Assembly: GCF_964036635.1 (NCBI RefSeq) | Contig: NZ_OZ038524.1 | Span: forward strand, 411,001-475,000 | Reading direction: 5' to 3' | DNA length: 64,000 nt | DNA from: Tenacibaculum dicentrarchi | Lineage (GTDB): Bacteria > Bacteroidota > Bacteroidia > Flavobacteriales > Flavobacteriaceae | Part shown: positions 7,677 to 62,374 of the stretch, one piece after another | Numbering within the stretch: the first letter of the stretch is position 1 | Layout: the number at the start of each line of letters is the position of its first letter | The notes under the pieces: model-generated | What the model was told of the DNA's origin: nothing | Databases searched by the model: none | What the model saw: the letters and a program-made list of their open reading frames with translations, nothing else | Program-made: the position numbers and the translations under genes

Positions 7677-7765
7677 TTGAAGCAATTTCCCGCTTTCCGC
7701 ACTCGCTTTTTTTTGAAGAAAAATCAAAAAAAGAGCTCAAACAAATGCTACAATCGGGGCTAGGT
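7677..7765 (+). repeat. R2 dispersed structured repeat, copy 1
   Basis: An 89-bp element running from TTGAAGCAATTTCCCGC to CAATCGGGGCTAGG, with a central inverted repeat CTTTTTTTTGA / TCAAAAAAAG. It lies 21 bases after the stop of the kinase-aminotransferase gene, in the same orientation. Copy 4 shares its short apex; copies 2 and 3 have a longer one. Confidence 0.85.
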
Positions 7766-30594: not shown

Positions 30595-30658
30595 CTGTTT
30601 TATATATCTAGTACTTTTATTAATTACTGCTTGAAAATATCAAAAAAACTGAAATTTA

Positions 30659-30755
30659 TAGCCCTGATTGAAGCATTTGTTTGAGCTCTTTTTTATTTTT
30701 TCTTTTCGAAAAAAAATAAAAAAAGCGAGTGCGGAAAGCAGGAAATTGCTTCAAA
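30659..30755 (-). repeat. R2 dispersed structured repeat, copy 2
   Basis: Inverse-orientation copy of the R2 element, 8 bases after the stop of the LRR gene and in its sense. It has the long apex (ATTTTTT...AAAAAAT). Relative to the other copies CCCGC reads CCTGC and TCGGGG reads TCAGGG, a compensating pair of changes. Confidence 0.85.
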
Positions 30756-40482: not shown

Positions 40483-40752
40483 TTATTTTCTAATTCCTAA
40501 TTCTTTGATAATAGCACGATATCTTGTAATATCTTTTTTCTTTAAGTAATCAAGTAAGCTTCTACGTTTTCCTACCATTTTCACTAATGAACGCTCTGTG
40601 TTAAAATCTTTACGATTTTTCTTTAAGTGCTCCGTTAAGTGGTTAATTCTAAAAGTGAACAAAGCAATTTGTCCTTCCGAAGTTCCAGTATCAGCTTTAC
40701 TTTTACCGTGTTTTTCGAATAATCCTTCTTTTACTTCTTTTGTTAAATACAT
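40483..40752 (-). CDS. rpsO: 30S ribosomal protein S15
   Basis: An 89-residue S15 with all hallmark segments (DTGTSEGQIALFTFRINHLTEHLKKN, RSLVKMVGKRRSLLDYLKKKD). It binds 16S rRNA early in 30S assembly. Length is normal. Confidence 0.97.
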   Translation of the reverse strand: MYLTKEVKEGLFEKHGKSKADTGTSEGQIALFTFRINHLTEHLKKNRKDFNTERSLVKMVGKRRSLLDYLKKKDITRYRAIIKELGIRK

Positions 40753-40871
40753 TCCAATATTATTTAAATGATTTTTATGTACATCAATGAGTTATTCATT
40801 GAAGTTGCAAATGTACAAATAAAATTTTAGTTGAATTGAGAGAATCGTTGTTTTTGTGTAGATAAAAAACA

Positions 40872-57104: not shown

Positions 57105-57202
57105 TTTGAAGCAATTTCCCGCTTTCCGCACTCGCTTTTTTTATTTTTTCGAAAAGAAAAATAAAAAAGAGCTCAAACAAATGCTTCAATCGGGGCTAGG
57201 CA
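57105..57202 (+). repeat. R2 dispersed structured repeat, copy 3
   Basis: A 98-bp element with the long apex (CTTTTTTTATTTTTTCG / AAAAATAAAAAAG), starting TTGAAGCAATTTCCCGC and ending TGCTTCAATCGGGGCTAGGCA. It lies upstream of rsgA and before the small secreted gene. Spurious ORFs read across it on both strands. Confidence 0.85.
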
Positions 57203-57752: not shown

Positions 57753-57786
57753 AAAAAAAGGAGCTTCAATTGAAGCTCCTTTTTTT
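57753..57786. terminator. Bidirectional palindromic terminator
   Basis: An exact palindrome around AGGAGCTTCAATTGAAGCTCCT with A and T runs outside, between the convergent small secreted gene and the aroG fusion. Confidence 0.9.
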
Positions 57787-58868
57787 TATCCTTTAATAAT
57801 TTTTTCTTGATGATTAATAGATTCTTGGTGAATTGCTTTAAACATTTTTAAAACAAATTCTTCGCTTAATCCTTTGCTTTCACCTTCAAGAATCATGTTT
57901 CCAAGAATTTCATTCCAACGTCTAGACTGTAAAACAGCAACGTTCATATCTTTCTTTAAAGCACCAATTTTATCGGCAACTTTCATTCTTTTGCCCATCA
58001 TTTCTATTAGTTGTCCATCAACAATATTAATTTGAGCACGTAAATTATCTAAAGATTCTCTGTATTCAGAATCAGTTTCTGTTGCTTTTCTAATTTTTAA
58101 ATCAGTCATAATCTGCTTTAACTTAGTAGGAGTTACTTGTTGAGCAGCATCACTCCAAGCCTTTTCAGGGTCAAAATGAGTTTCAACCATTAAACCATCA
58201 AAGTTTAAATCTAAAGCAGTTTGACAAACATCAAAAATCATTTCTCTGTTTCCTGTAATATGTGAAGGGTCACAAATTAAAGGTAAATCAGGGAATCTAT
58301 TTTTAAACTCAATTGCAATTTGCCATTCAGGAACGTTTCTATATTTTGATTTTTCATAAGTTGAAAACCCTCTATGAATAGCTCCTAAGTTTTTAATATC
58401 TGCAGTGTATAATCTTTCAATTCCACCTAACCACAAAGCTAAATCTGGATTTATAGGGTTTTTTACCAATACAATTTTATCTGTACCATGTAAAGCGTCT
58501 GCTAATTCCTGCATAATAAACGGAGAGACTGCAGTTCTTGCACCAATCCATAATAAATCTATATCATGTTCTAAAGCTAATTTTACGTGGGCTGCATTGG
58601 CAACTTCAGTACAGGTTTTCATACCTGTTTCTTCTTTTACTTTTTGTAACCACTTTAAACCTAAAGAACCTACACCTTCAAAATTTCCAGGTCTAGTTCT
58701 TGGTTTCCAAATTCCTGCTCTAAAATAGTTTACATCAGAATCTTTTAATTCGTGTGCAATTTTTAAAACCTGCTCTTCGGTTTCTGCACTACAAGGCCCT
58801 GCTATTACTAGTGGATGTGCTAAATTCATATCATCCAACCATGTTCTTAATTCTTTTGTATTTTCCAT
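57786..58868 (-). CDS. Bifunctional DAHP synthase / chorismate mutase (type II)
   Basis: A 360-residue fusion. Residues 1-255: DAHP synthase of the KDO8PS-like type (PLVIAGPCSAETEEQ, FRAGIWKPRTRPGNFEG, DPSHITGNREM). Residues about 270-360: AroQ chorismate mutase (LRAQINIVDGQLIEMMGKRMKVADKIGALKK). It starts the shikimate pathway and also converts chorismate to prephenate. It is the fourth gene of the phe/tyr operon, 20 bases after tyrA, so its supply is tied to the leader attenuator upstream of pheA. Confidence 0.94.
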   Translation of the reverse strand: MENTKELRTWLDDMNLAHPLVIAGPCSAETEEQVLKIAHELKDSDVNYFRAGIWKPRTRPGNFEGVGSLGLKWLQKVKEETGMKTCTEVANAAHVKLALEHDIDLLWIGARTAVSPFIMQELADALHGTDKIVLVKNPINPDLALWLGGIERLYTADIKNLGAIHRGFSTYEKSKYRNVPEWQIAIEFKNRFPDLPLICDPSHITGNREMIFDVCQTALDLNFDGLMVETHFDPEKAWSDAAQQVTPTKLKQIMTDLKIRKATETDSEYRESLDNLRAQINIVDGQLIEMMGKRMKVADKIGALKKDMNVAVLQSRRWNEILGNMILEGESKGLSEEFVLKMFKAIHQESINHQEKIIKG

Positions 58869-58888: not shown

Positions 58889-59737
58889 TTATTTTATGCC
58901 GTTTAATATTTGTTTTATGTGATTTGTACTTTCCATTTCGTTATGGATTTCAGTAAAATCATCTTCTAGTATTAATTCTTTAAATTGTTGTAAATTATTG
59001 ATATACTCATCCAAAGTTTCTACAACATTGTCTTTATTTTGTTTAAAAATAGCTGTCCACATTGCTGGTGAACTTTTTGCTAAACGTACTGTTGAAGCAA
59101 AACCAGAACCTGCCATATCAAAAATATCACGTTCGTTTTTTTCTTTTTCGATAACAGTTTTTCCTAACATAAAAGAACTGATATGCGATAAATGAGATAC
59201 ATACGCAATGTGTTTATCGTGCGATTTTGCATCCATATAACGAATTCTCATTCCTAATTTTGAGAAAATATCTAAAGCTATTTCTTGTAATTTGAAAGCT
59301 GTTTTTTCTACTTCACAAATAATATTTGTTTTTTGTTTAAACAAATTCTCATGTGCTGCTGTTGGTCCTGAAAATTCAGTACCTGCAATAGGGTGTGTTG
59401 CTAAAAAATTTCTTCGCTTCGGATGATTTTTAATAGCTTCACAAATGTTTGCTTTTGTAGAACCTACATCTAAAACTAAACAATCATCAGCAATAATATC
59501 TAAAACTTTAGGTATTATTGCTATTTGAACATCAACAGGTATTGAAATAATTACAATACTTGCTTTTTCTAATTCGCTAAACGTTGATTTATGATGAATT
59601 ACGCCAATTTTTTTAGCTTCATCTAAATGATTTTCGCTGGCATCAATTCCATAAACAACAGCCTCAGGATATTCTCTTTGAATATCTAAAACCATGCTTC
59701 CACCAATTAAACCAACACCAATTACAAATACGTTCAT
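58889..59737 (-). CDS. tyrA: Prephenate dehydrogenase
   Basis: A 282-residue TyrA with a Rossmann motif VIGVGLIGGSMVLDI, the HPIAGTEFSGPTAA substrate loop and the SHLSHISSFML segment. It converts prephenate to 4-hydroxyphenylpyruvate for tyrosine. No ACT domain is visible. Third gene of the aromatic operon, 52 bases after the aminotransferase. Confidence 0.93.
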   Translation of the reverse strand: MNVFVIGVGLIGGSMVLDIQREYPEAVVYGIDASENHLDEAKKIGVIHHKSTFSELEKASIVIISIPVDVQIAIIPKVLDIIADDCLVLDVGSTKANICEAIKNHPKRRNFLATHPIAGTEFSGPTAAHENLFKQKTNIICEVEKTAFKLQEIALDIFSKLGMRIRYMDAKSHDKHIAYVSHLSHISSFMLGKTVIEKEKNERDIFDMAGSGFASTVRLAKSSPAMWTAIFKQNKDNVVETLDEYINNLQQFKELILEDDFTEIHNEMESTNHIKQILNGIK

Positions 59738-59789: not shown

Positions 59790-60935
59790 TTAGGCAAATC
59801 TATTAATTGCTTCTTTAATTACTTCTTTTGTAATACATAATGAAAAACGAATATAACCTTCTCCTTGCGAACCAAAAACAGTTCCAGGAGTAATAAATAT
59901 ATCTTTTCCGTATAAAATTTCATCGGCAGTTTCTTCGGATGTTTTTCCTTCAGGGATTTTAGCCCAAACAAACAAACCTGTTGAGTTTTTATTATAAGTA
60001 CAGTTTAATTTATCAGCAAGTTTAAAAATTAAATTTCTACGCTCTTCATATATTTTATTCTGAGCGATAAACCATTCATCAGATAAATGTAAAGCTTCAA
60101 TAGCACCTTTTTGAATTCCGTAAAACATACCAGAATCCATATTACTTTTAACCTTTAATATTTGATTGATAAAGTTAGCATTACCCAAAACCATACCAAC
60201 ACGCCAGCCTGCCATGTTAAATGTTTTACTTAATGAATTTAATTCTAAAGCAATCTCTTTAGCACCATCCACTTGTAAAATACTGATAGGATTATCATTT
60301 AATATAAAACTATACGGATTATCATTAACAATTAATATTTGATGTTTTTTACCAAAAGCTACTAATTTTTCAAAAGTTTCTAAAGTTGCGTTTGTTCCCG
60401 TTGGCATATGCGGATAATTCACCCACATAATTTTTACGTTTTCTAAATCTAACTTTTCTAATTCTTCAAAGTTTGGTTGCCAGTTAGTTGTATCACTTAA
60501 GTTGTAAAAAAGTGGTGTTGCACCGACTAATTTAGTAACAGAAGTATAAGTCGGATAACCAGGGTTTGGAATTAATACTTTATCGCCTTCATTTAAAAAA
60601 GCCATAGAAATATGCATAATTCCTTCTTTACTACCCATTAAAGGTAATATTTCATTTTCAGGATTAGAGGCTACTCCAAATTTTTCATTATAGAACTTAG
60701 AAATTGCGTTTCTTAATTCAGGTAATCCTTGATAACTTTGATATTTATGAGCAGTTGCATCTCCAAAACTTTCTTGAATAGCATTAATTACATTAGTAGG
60801 AGGCAATAAATCAGGGCTACCAATTCCCATATTGATAATTGGTTTTCCTGCTGCTGCCAACTCTCTAACTTCTCTTAATTTTTTAGAGAAGTAGTATTCT
60901 TGTACGGTATCTAATCTTTTTGCTGGTTGAATCAT
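59790..60935 (-). CDS. Class I aminotransferase (probable aromatic aminotransferase)
   Basis: A 381-residue fold-type I PLP enzyme with the Lys-containing signature NSLSKTFNMAGWRVG, the PNPGYPTYTSV binding segment and a C-terminal Arg region (GSQGEGYIRFSLCI). Placed between pheA and tyrA with a 1-base overlap to pheA, it most likely makes phenylalanine and tyrosine from their keto acids. An aspartate or prephenate aminotransferase function cannot be excluded. Confidence 0.9.
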   Translation of the reverse strand: MIQPAKRLDTVQEYYFSKKLREVRELAAAGKPIINMGIGSPDLLPPTNVINAIQESFGDATAHKYQSYQGLPELRNAISKFYNEKFGVASNPENEILPLMGSKEGIMHISMAFLNEGDKVLIPNPGYPTYTSVTKLVGATPLFYNLSDTTNWQPNFEELEKLDLENVKIMWVNYPHMPTGTNATLETFEKLVAFGKKHQILIVNDNPYSFILNDNPISILQVDGAKEIALELNSLSKTFNMAGWRVGMVLGNANFINQILKVKSNMDSGMFYGIQKGAIEALHLSDEWFIAQNKIYEERRNLIFKLADKLNCTYNKNSTGLFVWAKIPEGKTSEETADEILYGKDIFITPGTVFGSQGEGYIRFSLCITKEVIKEAINRFA

Positions 60936-61762
60936 TATTTTCTTCCGTTTTTATATGCTCCTAATACTTTAAATTCTTCTGCCATTATTTTAATAATAGA
61001 AATTGCCTTTTCGTAATTTTTATATTCATTAAAGGTAACATCTACAAAAAACGAGTATTTCCAAGGAGCTTCAATTACTGGTAACGATTGTATTTTTGTT
61101 AAATTCATTTTGCAATCGCTTAATACATTTAAAAGAGTAGCTAAACTACCTCTTTTATGGTCTAGTACAAATTTCAAGGAAGCTTTATTTATCGTATCAA
61201 TTCCGTTACTAGATTCTTTAGTTTGTACAATAACAAATCGGGTTGAATTTTCTTTCATGGTTTGAATGTCATCTTCAATAACATTTAAACCAAAAATTTC
61301 CGCTGCAATTTTTGGTGCAATGGCAGCAACTCCTTTTAAGTTATTTTTAGCAATTCTTTTGGCTACTTCGGCAGTATCAACATCTTCTACTAATTTAATA
61401 TGTTTATGTTTTTTTAAAAACTCTTTACATTGTAGTAGTGCCATCGGATGCGAACATACTTCGGTAATATCTTCAATTTTTTGATTAGGAAGTGCCATTA
61501 AATGATGATGAATATTTAAATATTCTTCACCAATTATTTGTAAATTATTTTTATCAATTAAAGCATAATTAGGAATAATAGAGCCTGCAATAGTATTCTC
61601 TAACGCCATAATACCAACATCTGCTGTTTTATCAAGTAAGCTATCTACTAAAACATCAAAAGACATACATTCTTTTAATCCAATTGTAGTGCCATAAAAA
61701 TCACGAGCTACTTTATGATGGTTAGATCCTTCTGCTCCTTGAATTGCTATAATTTGTTTCAT
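60935..61762 (-). CDS. pheA: Prephenate dehydratase
   Basis: A 275-residue monofunctional prephenate dehydratase: periplasmic-binding-like catalytic domain (ENTIAGSIIPNYALI and the TRF motif in ENSTRFVIVQ), then an ACT domain (GSLATLLNVLSDCKMNLTKIQSLPV). The ESRP motif that binds phenylalanine in E. coli PheA reads QSLP, so feedback control may differ. First gene of the operon, behind a leader-peptide attenuator. The stop overlaps the aminotransferase start by one base. Confidence 0.93.
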   Translation of the reverse strand: MKQIIAIQGAEGSNHHKVARDFYGTTIGLKECMSFDVLVDSLLDKTADVGIMALENTIAGSIIPNYALIDKNNLQIIGEEYLNIHHHLMALPNQKIEDITEVCSHPMALLQCKEFLKKHKHIKLVEDVDTAEVAKRIAKNNLKGVAAIAPKIAAEIFGLNVIEDDIQTMKENSTRFVIVQTKESSNGIDTINKASLKFVLDHKRGSLATLLNVLSDCKMNLTKIQSLPVIEAPWKYSFFVDVTFNEYKNYEKAISIIKIMAEEFKVLGAYKNGRK

Positions 61763-61770
61763 TTTAAATC

Positions 61771-61800
61771 AAAAAAAAAGCCCCGATATATCGAGACTTT
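61771..61800 (-). terminator. Attenuator terminator in the pheA leader
   Basis: On the minus strand AAAGTCTCGATATATCGGGG continues with CTTT and a run of nine T. AAAGTCTCGAT pairs with ATCGGGGCTTT (with G-T pairs), a rho-independent terminator 9 bases before pheA. Its left arm AAAGTCTC can instead pair with GAGACTTT at 61834-61841, which abolishes the terminator. Confidence 0.85.
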
Positions 61801-61841
61801 ATAAGTTATATTTGTTAGTTAACAATACGATACAAAGTCTC
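61793..61841 (-). promoter_or_regulatory. Antiterminator of the aromatic operon leader
   Basis: GAGACTTT (61834-61841), which overlaps the leader stop codon, is an exact complement of AAAGTCTC (61793-61800). An inner stem around TTGTT / AACAA strengthens it. Formation is possible only if the ribosome stalls before the leader's end. Confidence 0.8.
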
Positions 61842-61902
61842 AGCCTTTATTAAAAAAATAAAAGTAAAAATAGAAACCTTGCCAGATGTTTTGTAACGTC
61901 AT
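61840..61902 (-). CDS. Aromatic leader peptide (attenuation)
   Basis: A 20-codon ORF reading ATG to TGA on the minus strand, 77 bases upstream of pheA: MTLQNIWQGFYFYFYFFNKG. It has five Phe, three Tyr and one Trp in residues 7-17. It follows a TAGATTTG promoter element by about 23 bases. The stop codon touches the antiterminator arm. The design matches pheL-type leaders: aromatic starvation stalls the ribosome in FYFYFYFF and lets pheA, aminotransferase, tyrA and aroG be transcribed. No Shine-Dalgarno is seen, as is usual in Bacteroidota. Confidence 0.85.
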   Translation of the reverse strand: MTLQNIWQGFYFYFYFFNKG

Positions 61903-61924
61903 TTTTGTATTTGTTGTACAAACA

Positions 61925-61932
61925 CAAATCTA
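61925..61932 (-). promoter_or_regulatory. Promoter -7 element of the aromatic operon
   Basis: TAGATTTG on the minus strand fits TAnnTTTG and lies 22 bases before the leader ATG. The -33 region shows only a T-rich tract. Confidence 0.6.
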
Positions 61933-62286: not shown

Positions 62287-62374
62287 AGAAGCAATTACCC
62301 GCTTTCCGCACTCGCTTTTTTTTGAAGAAAAATCAAAAAAAGAGCTCAAACAAAGCATCAATCGGGGCTAGGCA
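62287..62374 (+). repeat. R2 dispersed structured repeat, copy 4
   Basis: Short-apex copy like copy 1: GAAGCAATTACCCGC to ATCGGGGCTAGGCA. The right arm reads AAAGCATCAA rather than AAATGCTTCAA, so this copy is partly decayed. It lies in a gene-free stretch. Confidence 0.8.

Follow-up and report, generated by a model that had tools for sequence, protein, structure and literature searches.

The DNA between the promoter and the start of pheA in Tenacibaculum dicentrarchi very probably (probability about 0.9, judged from sequence comparison) encodes a ribosome-mediated transcription attenuator responsive to the supply of charged tRNA-Phe and tRNA-Tyr. The attenuator and the operon behind it lie on the minus strand of a 2.81 Mb genome assembled as one contig; the window, that is the whole stretch analysed, comprises 64,000 nt. 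An earlier sequence-only reading had proposed attenuation from a promoter box, a 20-codon ORF with the run FYFYFYFF, a pairing between segments 2 and 3 and a nine-T terminator. All of these were confirmed base by base, and the interpretation itself is supported by the anatomy of the leader, its conserved frame, its mutually exclusive pairings and the comparison with relatives. The features are listed below in the order of transcription.

61925..61932, minus strand: -7 box of a Bacteroidota sigma-A type promoter, TAGATTTG (TAnnTTTG), from base-by-base reading
61840..61902, minus strand: leader peptide ORF MTLQNIWQGFYFYFYFFNKG, 20 codons plus TGA, without a Shine-Dalgarno sequence, from reading and comparison
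61873..61882, minus strand: segment 1, GCAAGGTTTC, outer stem of the 1:2 hairpin, from the fold
61852..61875, minus strand: sensor codons 10-17, Phe-Tyr-Phe-Tyr-Phe-Tyr-Phe-Phe, from translation
61844..61864, minus strand: inner stem of the 1:2 hairpin, within the leader ORF, CTTTTATT (61864-61857) and AATAAAGG (61851-61844)
61832..61841, minus strand: segment 2, GAGACTTTGT, partner of segment 1 or segment 3, from fold and alignment
61791..61800, minus strand: segment 3, AAAGTCTCGA, common to antiterminator and terminator, pairing with TCGGGGCTTT
61777..61786, minus strand: segment 4, TCGGGGCTTT, right arm of the terminator
61771..61779, minus strand: nine T of the intrinsic terminator, from reading and terminator scan
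61762, minus strand: ATG start of pheA, from base-by-base reading
60935..61762, minus strand: pheA, prephenate dehydratase (PDT), 275 aa; PF00800 above its cut-off, top NCBIfam model at 187.3 bits, below its cut-off of 219
59790..60935, minus strand: class I aminotransferase; top match LL-DAP aminotransferase, the best 25 of 75 models all below their cut-offs
58889..59737, minus strand: tyrA, prephenate dehydrogenase, 383.7 bits against a cut-off of 295
57786..58868, minus strand: aroG/chorismate mutase (CM) fusion, DAHP synthase; matches DAHP synthase and chorismate mutase models, the best at 184.2 bits, below its cut-off of 335
57753-57786, listed on the plus strand: self-complementary hairpin with a T run, 3' of aroG/CM, from the terminator scan

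Transcription is predicted to start near 61920; the Bacteroidota promoter consensus TAnnTTTG is placed at -12 to -5 in the accessible part of PMC9723704. The 1:2 hairpin was not among the elements listed by the sequence-only reading: GCAAGGTTTC (61882-61873) pairs with GAGACTTTGT (61841-61832), and CTTTTATT pairs with AATAAAGG inside it. That reading had also given weight to an overlap between the leader stop codon and GAGACTTT. The overlap is real in the window, where the first two bases of GAGACTTT (61841-61834, minus strand) are the last two of the leader TGA, but it is not conserved, and it was discarded as a general rule because the ORF reads through in many relatives.

The aroG/CM gene is the last in a run of four whose neighbours overlap or lie 20-52 nt apart. 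The order pheA-aminotransferase-tyrA-aroG is found in 77 of 80 related loci, the remaining three being interrupted by contig ends. The leader would control all four genes jointly, as the sequence-only reading had proposed. The class I aminotransferase at 59790..60935 is presumably an aromatic aminotransferase, to judge from its place in the operon. Among the contigs of relatives, the closest match to PheA comes from Tenacibaculum soleae (87%).

The helix energies in the window are -15.2 kcal/mol for 2:3, -12.3 for 1:2 and -10.3 for 3:4. According to sequence and energy, the antiterminator 2:3 excludes the terminator and is free when the ribosome stalls at a sensor codon and blocked when it stands at the stop. 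With an assumed footprint of 12 nt shielded beyond the A-site codon, a ribosome at any of codons 10-16 leaves all eight 2:3 pairs free, at codon 17 six, and at codons 18-21 none, so that stalling at Phe or at Tyr codons would be expected to induce the operon, and a ribosome at the stop to shut it off.

For this leader we infer translation, stalling, termination and a response to starvation along the following lines. RNA polymerase would synthesize a leader RNA of about 150 nt. A lead ribosome that passes the Phe and Tyr codons and reaches the stop would cover segment 2, upon which 3:4 would form and the transcript would end near 61771. A ribosome stalled at a Phe or Tyr codon would instead cover segment 1 and leave segment 2 exposed; 2:3 would then form first and prevent 3:4, and transcription would proceed into pheA and the three genes behind it. 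An untranslated leader would fold into 1:2 and 3:4 and terminate, which is the least certain step. In the nascent fold, where segment 4 is still missing, 2:3 beats 1:2 also with the ribosome at codons 2-9, where segment 1 is partly or wholly free (-19.5 kcal/mol with 2:3 at codons 2-8), and the off state would therefore depend on 1:2 and 3:4, as they stand together in the fold of the complete leader, and on the kinetics and order of folding.

Conservation was examined in the best 80 of 138 pheA relatives, which together with the window form a close set of 81 loci. An ATG-initiated ORF with at least seven Phe, Tyr or Trp per 10 residues is located upstream of pheA in all 81, as is a terminator of the form AG(T/C)CTCG...CG(A/G)G(A/G)(C/T) followed by at least five T. 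Counted over the best 10-residue windows of these ORFs, Phe occurs 365 times, Tyr 232 times and Trp 50 times, next to 163 other residues that include a single Leu (CTA) and neither TTA nor TTG. Of the 81 loci, 73 have a TAnnTTTG box no more than 80 nt upstream of the leader ATG, and in 66 of these 73 the box begins 26-32 nt before it. Shine-Dalgarno-like 4-mers precede the leader ATG at two of the 81 loci. The start context is A-rich, A being the commonest base at positions -3, -6, -7, -9 and -12 (each in at least 58 of 81). Such starts are in keeping with the report that ribosomes of Bacteroidia do not recognise Shine-Dalgarno sequences (accessible part of PMC9976891).

Pairing was counted in the 37 of 81 sequences that were aligned, and these counts are used descriptively, as related sequences can beat shuffles without any structure. 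Paired cells make up 99.7% for the terminator 3:4 and 70.1% for the outer 1:2 stem. For the inner 1:2 stem they make up 97.3%, and four of its eight pairs show changes on both sides. No covariation was found for 2:3 among the close relatives (94.1% of cells paired versus 94.2% in shuffles), where this helix hardly varies.

The range of the element was then determined in the family, taken as Flavobacteriaceae, and in the class, taken as Bacteroidia, both judged from named relatives. A covariance model of the 37-sequence alignment (R1) was searched against 120 family genomes under the stricter filters of Infernal, and a detector that looks for an aromatic leader ORF plus a terminator upstream of pheA was used alongside. 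R1 yielded 94 matches in 93 of the 120 genomes. Of these matches, 91 are located upstream of a PDT gene on the same strand, 88 of them within 132 nt and the rest at 344, 525 and 917 nt. The other three comprise a match at a contig end (G311), a genuine element (G241) and a false positive, the second match in G312, which is a plain terminator 3' of a gene and lacks a leader ORF. PDT is present in 107 of the 120 genomes; 16 of these have no upstream R1 match, and the detector finds leader and terminator in 14 of the 16 (13 plus G021). At the two remaining loci, L198 and L200, the detector found no leader with terminator, the upstream DNA of L200 amounting to just 385 nt. The element, of the kind that the sequence-only reading had suggested looking for in other Flavobacteriaceae, is thus found in 105 of 107 PDT genomes by R1 or detector and missed by both in two. 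Leader ORFs were read individually in seven family genomes (G000, G029, G103, G107, G320, G223 and G281). In G320, an ORF at about 320-925 of L213 lies between attenuator and pheA; we take it to resemble a REP-associated transposase.

PDT was sought in 118 genomes of the phylum (102 positive, 25 of them from the same class) and in 109 genomes of the class (31 positive, 78 without a match), which gave a class sample of 44 distinct PDT-bearing genomes, that of T. dicentrarchi included. The element was detected in 32 of the 44, as opposed to none of 2640 dinucleotide-shuffled versions of these upstream regions, and the other 12 contain no detectable element. Of the 77 PDT genomes outside the class, 28 were examined, namely those among the 30 best-scoring loci, and the element was found in none of these 28. 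Segment 2 begins 4-14 nt past the aromatic core in all 32 class cases. Segment 3 differs by lineage (for example GTCTCG, TCCTGAT, GTCCCGG, GTTCTC or CCCGCCTCC), and the complementarity of segment 2 to the local segment 3 exceeds that of 500 spacer shuffles at p<=0.05 in 24 of the 32 cases and at p<=0.01 in 21, eight missing the p<=0.05 level. Two class genomes have a pair of consecutive aromatic leader ORFs before pheA (L125:647-912 and L128:683-958). Each ORF of L125 is followed by a terminator, giving putative tandem attenuators; for L128, the second terminator alone was scored.

In the cores of the 32 class leaders Phe occurs 131 times, Tyr 106 times and Trp 8 times, so that Tyr accounts for 106 of 245 aromatic residues. 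Since at least two Phe and at least two Tyr codons are present in 31 of the 32, both amino acids are probably sensed. The main alternative is that Phe alone is sensed and that the Tyr codons are filler or structural. This would agree with the proteobacterial pheA leaders, which to our knowledge sense Phe only. The Tyr codons also help to build the inner 1:2 stem, where columns 71 and 79 covary (T-A in 25 sequences, C-G in 11), one of the two being the wobble position of a Tyr codon. Against it stand the large share of Tyr in the cores, the joint presence of both codons in 31 of 32 leaders despite a varying register, and the occurrence of tyrA alongside pheA in the operon, and sensing of Phe alone is accordingly considered unlikely.

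Sensing of Trp by the pheA leader, which the sequence-only reading had added with a "perhaps", was rejected. Trp occurs in 50 of the 81 close leaders, and two adjacent Trp are found in none of the 81 and in none of the 32 from the class. The genome also has a separate leader ORF, MMKQNNIWWWNSLRK (WWW; L163:2062-2109, minus strand), before a trpE-like gene; it is followed by a terminator and is likely to form a Trp attenuator of its own.

Adjacent Trp codons do appear in genomes that lack PDT. A PDT match is missing in 13 of the 120 family genomes. With the TyrA of the window as query, none of these 13 yielded a match, whereas all four PDT-bearing genomes searched alongside did; the aroG/CM fusion is kept in 12 of the 13. 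After omission of G262, which has no aroG/CM fusion, and of L227 of G311, where the frame was not found, 11 loci remained. G311 may merely seem to lack PDT, as its leader sits at a contig end. By a criterion chosen post hoc, after inspection of the sequences, a Trp-Trp leader plus terminator precedes aroG/CM at six of the 11 loci versus none of 2200 shuffles. The six are L211:269-420 (equivalent to L225, from G241), L216, L217, L218, L220 and L221. The element of G241 is still matched by R1 (E 6e-5), and its leader reads MTNNNTWWSNSKFYLKR. Among the other five loci, that of G297 combines a terminator with an ORF containing a single Trp, and four have no terminator.

The leader codons thus appear to follow the remaining product of the pathway, Trp-Trp being found at aroG/CM where PDT and TyrA are missing and never at pheA. 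The Trp-Trp leaders would then look like a natural codon-swap experiment, a possible reading of these sequences. The swap, or the PDT-less state, perhaps arose once; an aroG tree that includes few PDT-bearing genera is compatible with a single origin of the PDT-less state. Taken together, it seems somewhat more plausible than its negation that Bacteroidia own a widespread family of attenuators for Phe plus Tyr, in which the choice of sensor codons tracks the pathway and shifted to Trp-Trp where pheA and tyrA were lost and only the DAHP synthase was kept.

These leaders also bear on a second alternative, in which the aromatic peptide itself stalls the ribosome from within the exit tunnel on free Phe or Tyr. 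TnaC is a known case of nascent-peptide arrest in response to free Trp. The F-Y-F-Y order is strongly kept among the close relatives, which speaks for it, but the arrangement of Phe and Tyr varies in register, order and spacing between lineages of the class, and Trp-Trp replaces Phe/Tyr at the six aroG/CM loci. Codon counting fits this variable order and replacement better than one specific peptide, and peptide arrest is regarded as very improbable.

A riboswitch, a T-box or a protein-bound leader with an incidental short ORF would agree with the structured 5' region and the terminator hairpin. No Rfam family, T-box or other leader, reaches its gathering score over 61771-61932, and pairing and codons persist across the class though segments 2-4 change in sequence; this explanation is scarcely credible. 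The sole Rfam match to the leader is Phe_leader (RF01859) at 27.7 bits (E 0.021), below the gathering score of 55, and Rfam was set aside as a means of identifying it. Elsewhere in the window, the Rfam search gave four Flavo-1 RNA matches (7682-7765, 30656-30749, 57111-57201 and 62291-62373), the last of which scores exactly the gathering score and is located some 360 nt upstream of the promoter box of pheA, and an S15-Flavobacteria ribosomal protein leader (RF03161) at 40750-40815 on the minus strand.

That a plain terminator insulates pheA or yields a small RNA, with no part for translation, is held to be just as improbable: terminator-like hairpins are common locally (seven in 7 kb versus 3.1 expected), but this would leave the conserved frame, the 2:3 pairing and the regular spacing between box and ORF unexplained.

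The attenuator exceeds chance as a whole and not part by part. The minimum-energy fold of the full leader consists of 1:2 plus the terminator (z -3.03), and one of 200 dinucleotide shuffles folds equally well. Runs of seven Phe or Tyr codons give 26 matches (20 sites) in the 2.8 Mb genome versus 29 in a reversed control, and the run was therefore rejected as stand-alone evidence. Among the 26 matches, only the one at pheA combines an in-frame start codon with a terminator within reach.

The proteobacterial pheL leader encodes a peptide rich in Phe codons, forms alternative 1:2, 2:3 and 3:4 pairings and ends in a terminator before pheA. The leader in the window resembles it (RF01859) in all of these respects, but differs in its mixture of Phe and Tyr codons, in the lack of a Shine-Dalgarno sequence and in its low RF01859 score. 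It further differs in an operon that also contains tyrA and aroG/CM, and in its occurrence in the class Bacteroidia. Leaders of the trpL and his type follow the same logic with different codons and genes. A 2004 study by Vitreschak et al. is said to have predicted attenuators of amino-acid operons comparatively, some of them in Bacteroidetes/Chlorobi.

Few relevant items were among the literature matches listed for attenuation in Bacteroidetes or Bacteroides, including PMC4833913, one review and PMC9723704. The accessible part of PMC4833913 mentions neither pheA nor phenylalanine. For Flavobacterium psychrophilum, pheA and hisG were described in 2021 as preceded by structured 5' elements; these also occur in other genera of Flavobacteriaceae, have no Rfam hits, and were accompanied by strong clues for leader-peptide attenuation at amino-acid biosynthesis operons (PMC9723704, accessible part). 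The pheA element of that study shares gene and family with the one in the window. Neither a peptide nor a pairing scheme is given in the accessible text, nor does it mention Phe/Tyr codons, a range across the class or a swap of codons; the supplement may contain them. The pheA 5' element as such is already reported and is not claimed as unreported here, and this kind of attenuator is known; what the present comparison would add is how widely the element occurs, that it likely senses two amino acids, and a possible swap of its codons. In Bacteroides, small ORFs in 5' UTRs have been called reminiscent of leader peptides (PMC7366714, accessible part).

If the proposed mechanism holds, Phe and Tyr synthesis is probably controlled across the class by leaders of this type, a single leader serving both amino acids. 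Ribosome-mediated attenuation requires a ribosome close behind RNA polymerase. Transcription and translation would then be coupled at transcript starts in Bacteroidota despite the absence of Shine-Dalgarno pairing, a subject that no title addressed among the literature matches listed. As these leaders start without Shine-Dalgarno sequences, they would be ready probes of such coupling in Bacteroidota.

Further amino-acid genes of the T. dicentrarchi genome were inspected as well. At the starts examined, ilvD and two homoserine dehydrogenase genes have no leader ORF with a terminator. A GTG-start ORF rich in Ile and Thr, VLNNRTNIISLPIVAPTINSVGLIISTIIISIIIITL (L169:835-948, plus strand), precedes a homoserine dehydrogenase (thrA-like) gene, and no terminator was found after it. 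Before hisG, which like the trpE-like gene was named from Pfam matches, a leader ORF with five consecutive His codons, MNFNQLHHHHHICTQAN (HHHHH; L162:2235-2288, minus strand), is followed by the terminator CCGTTTGAGTAAATCAAACGG with seven T, and the two likely constitute a His attenuator.
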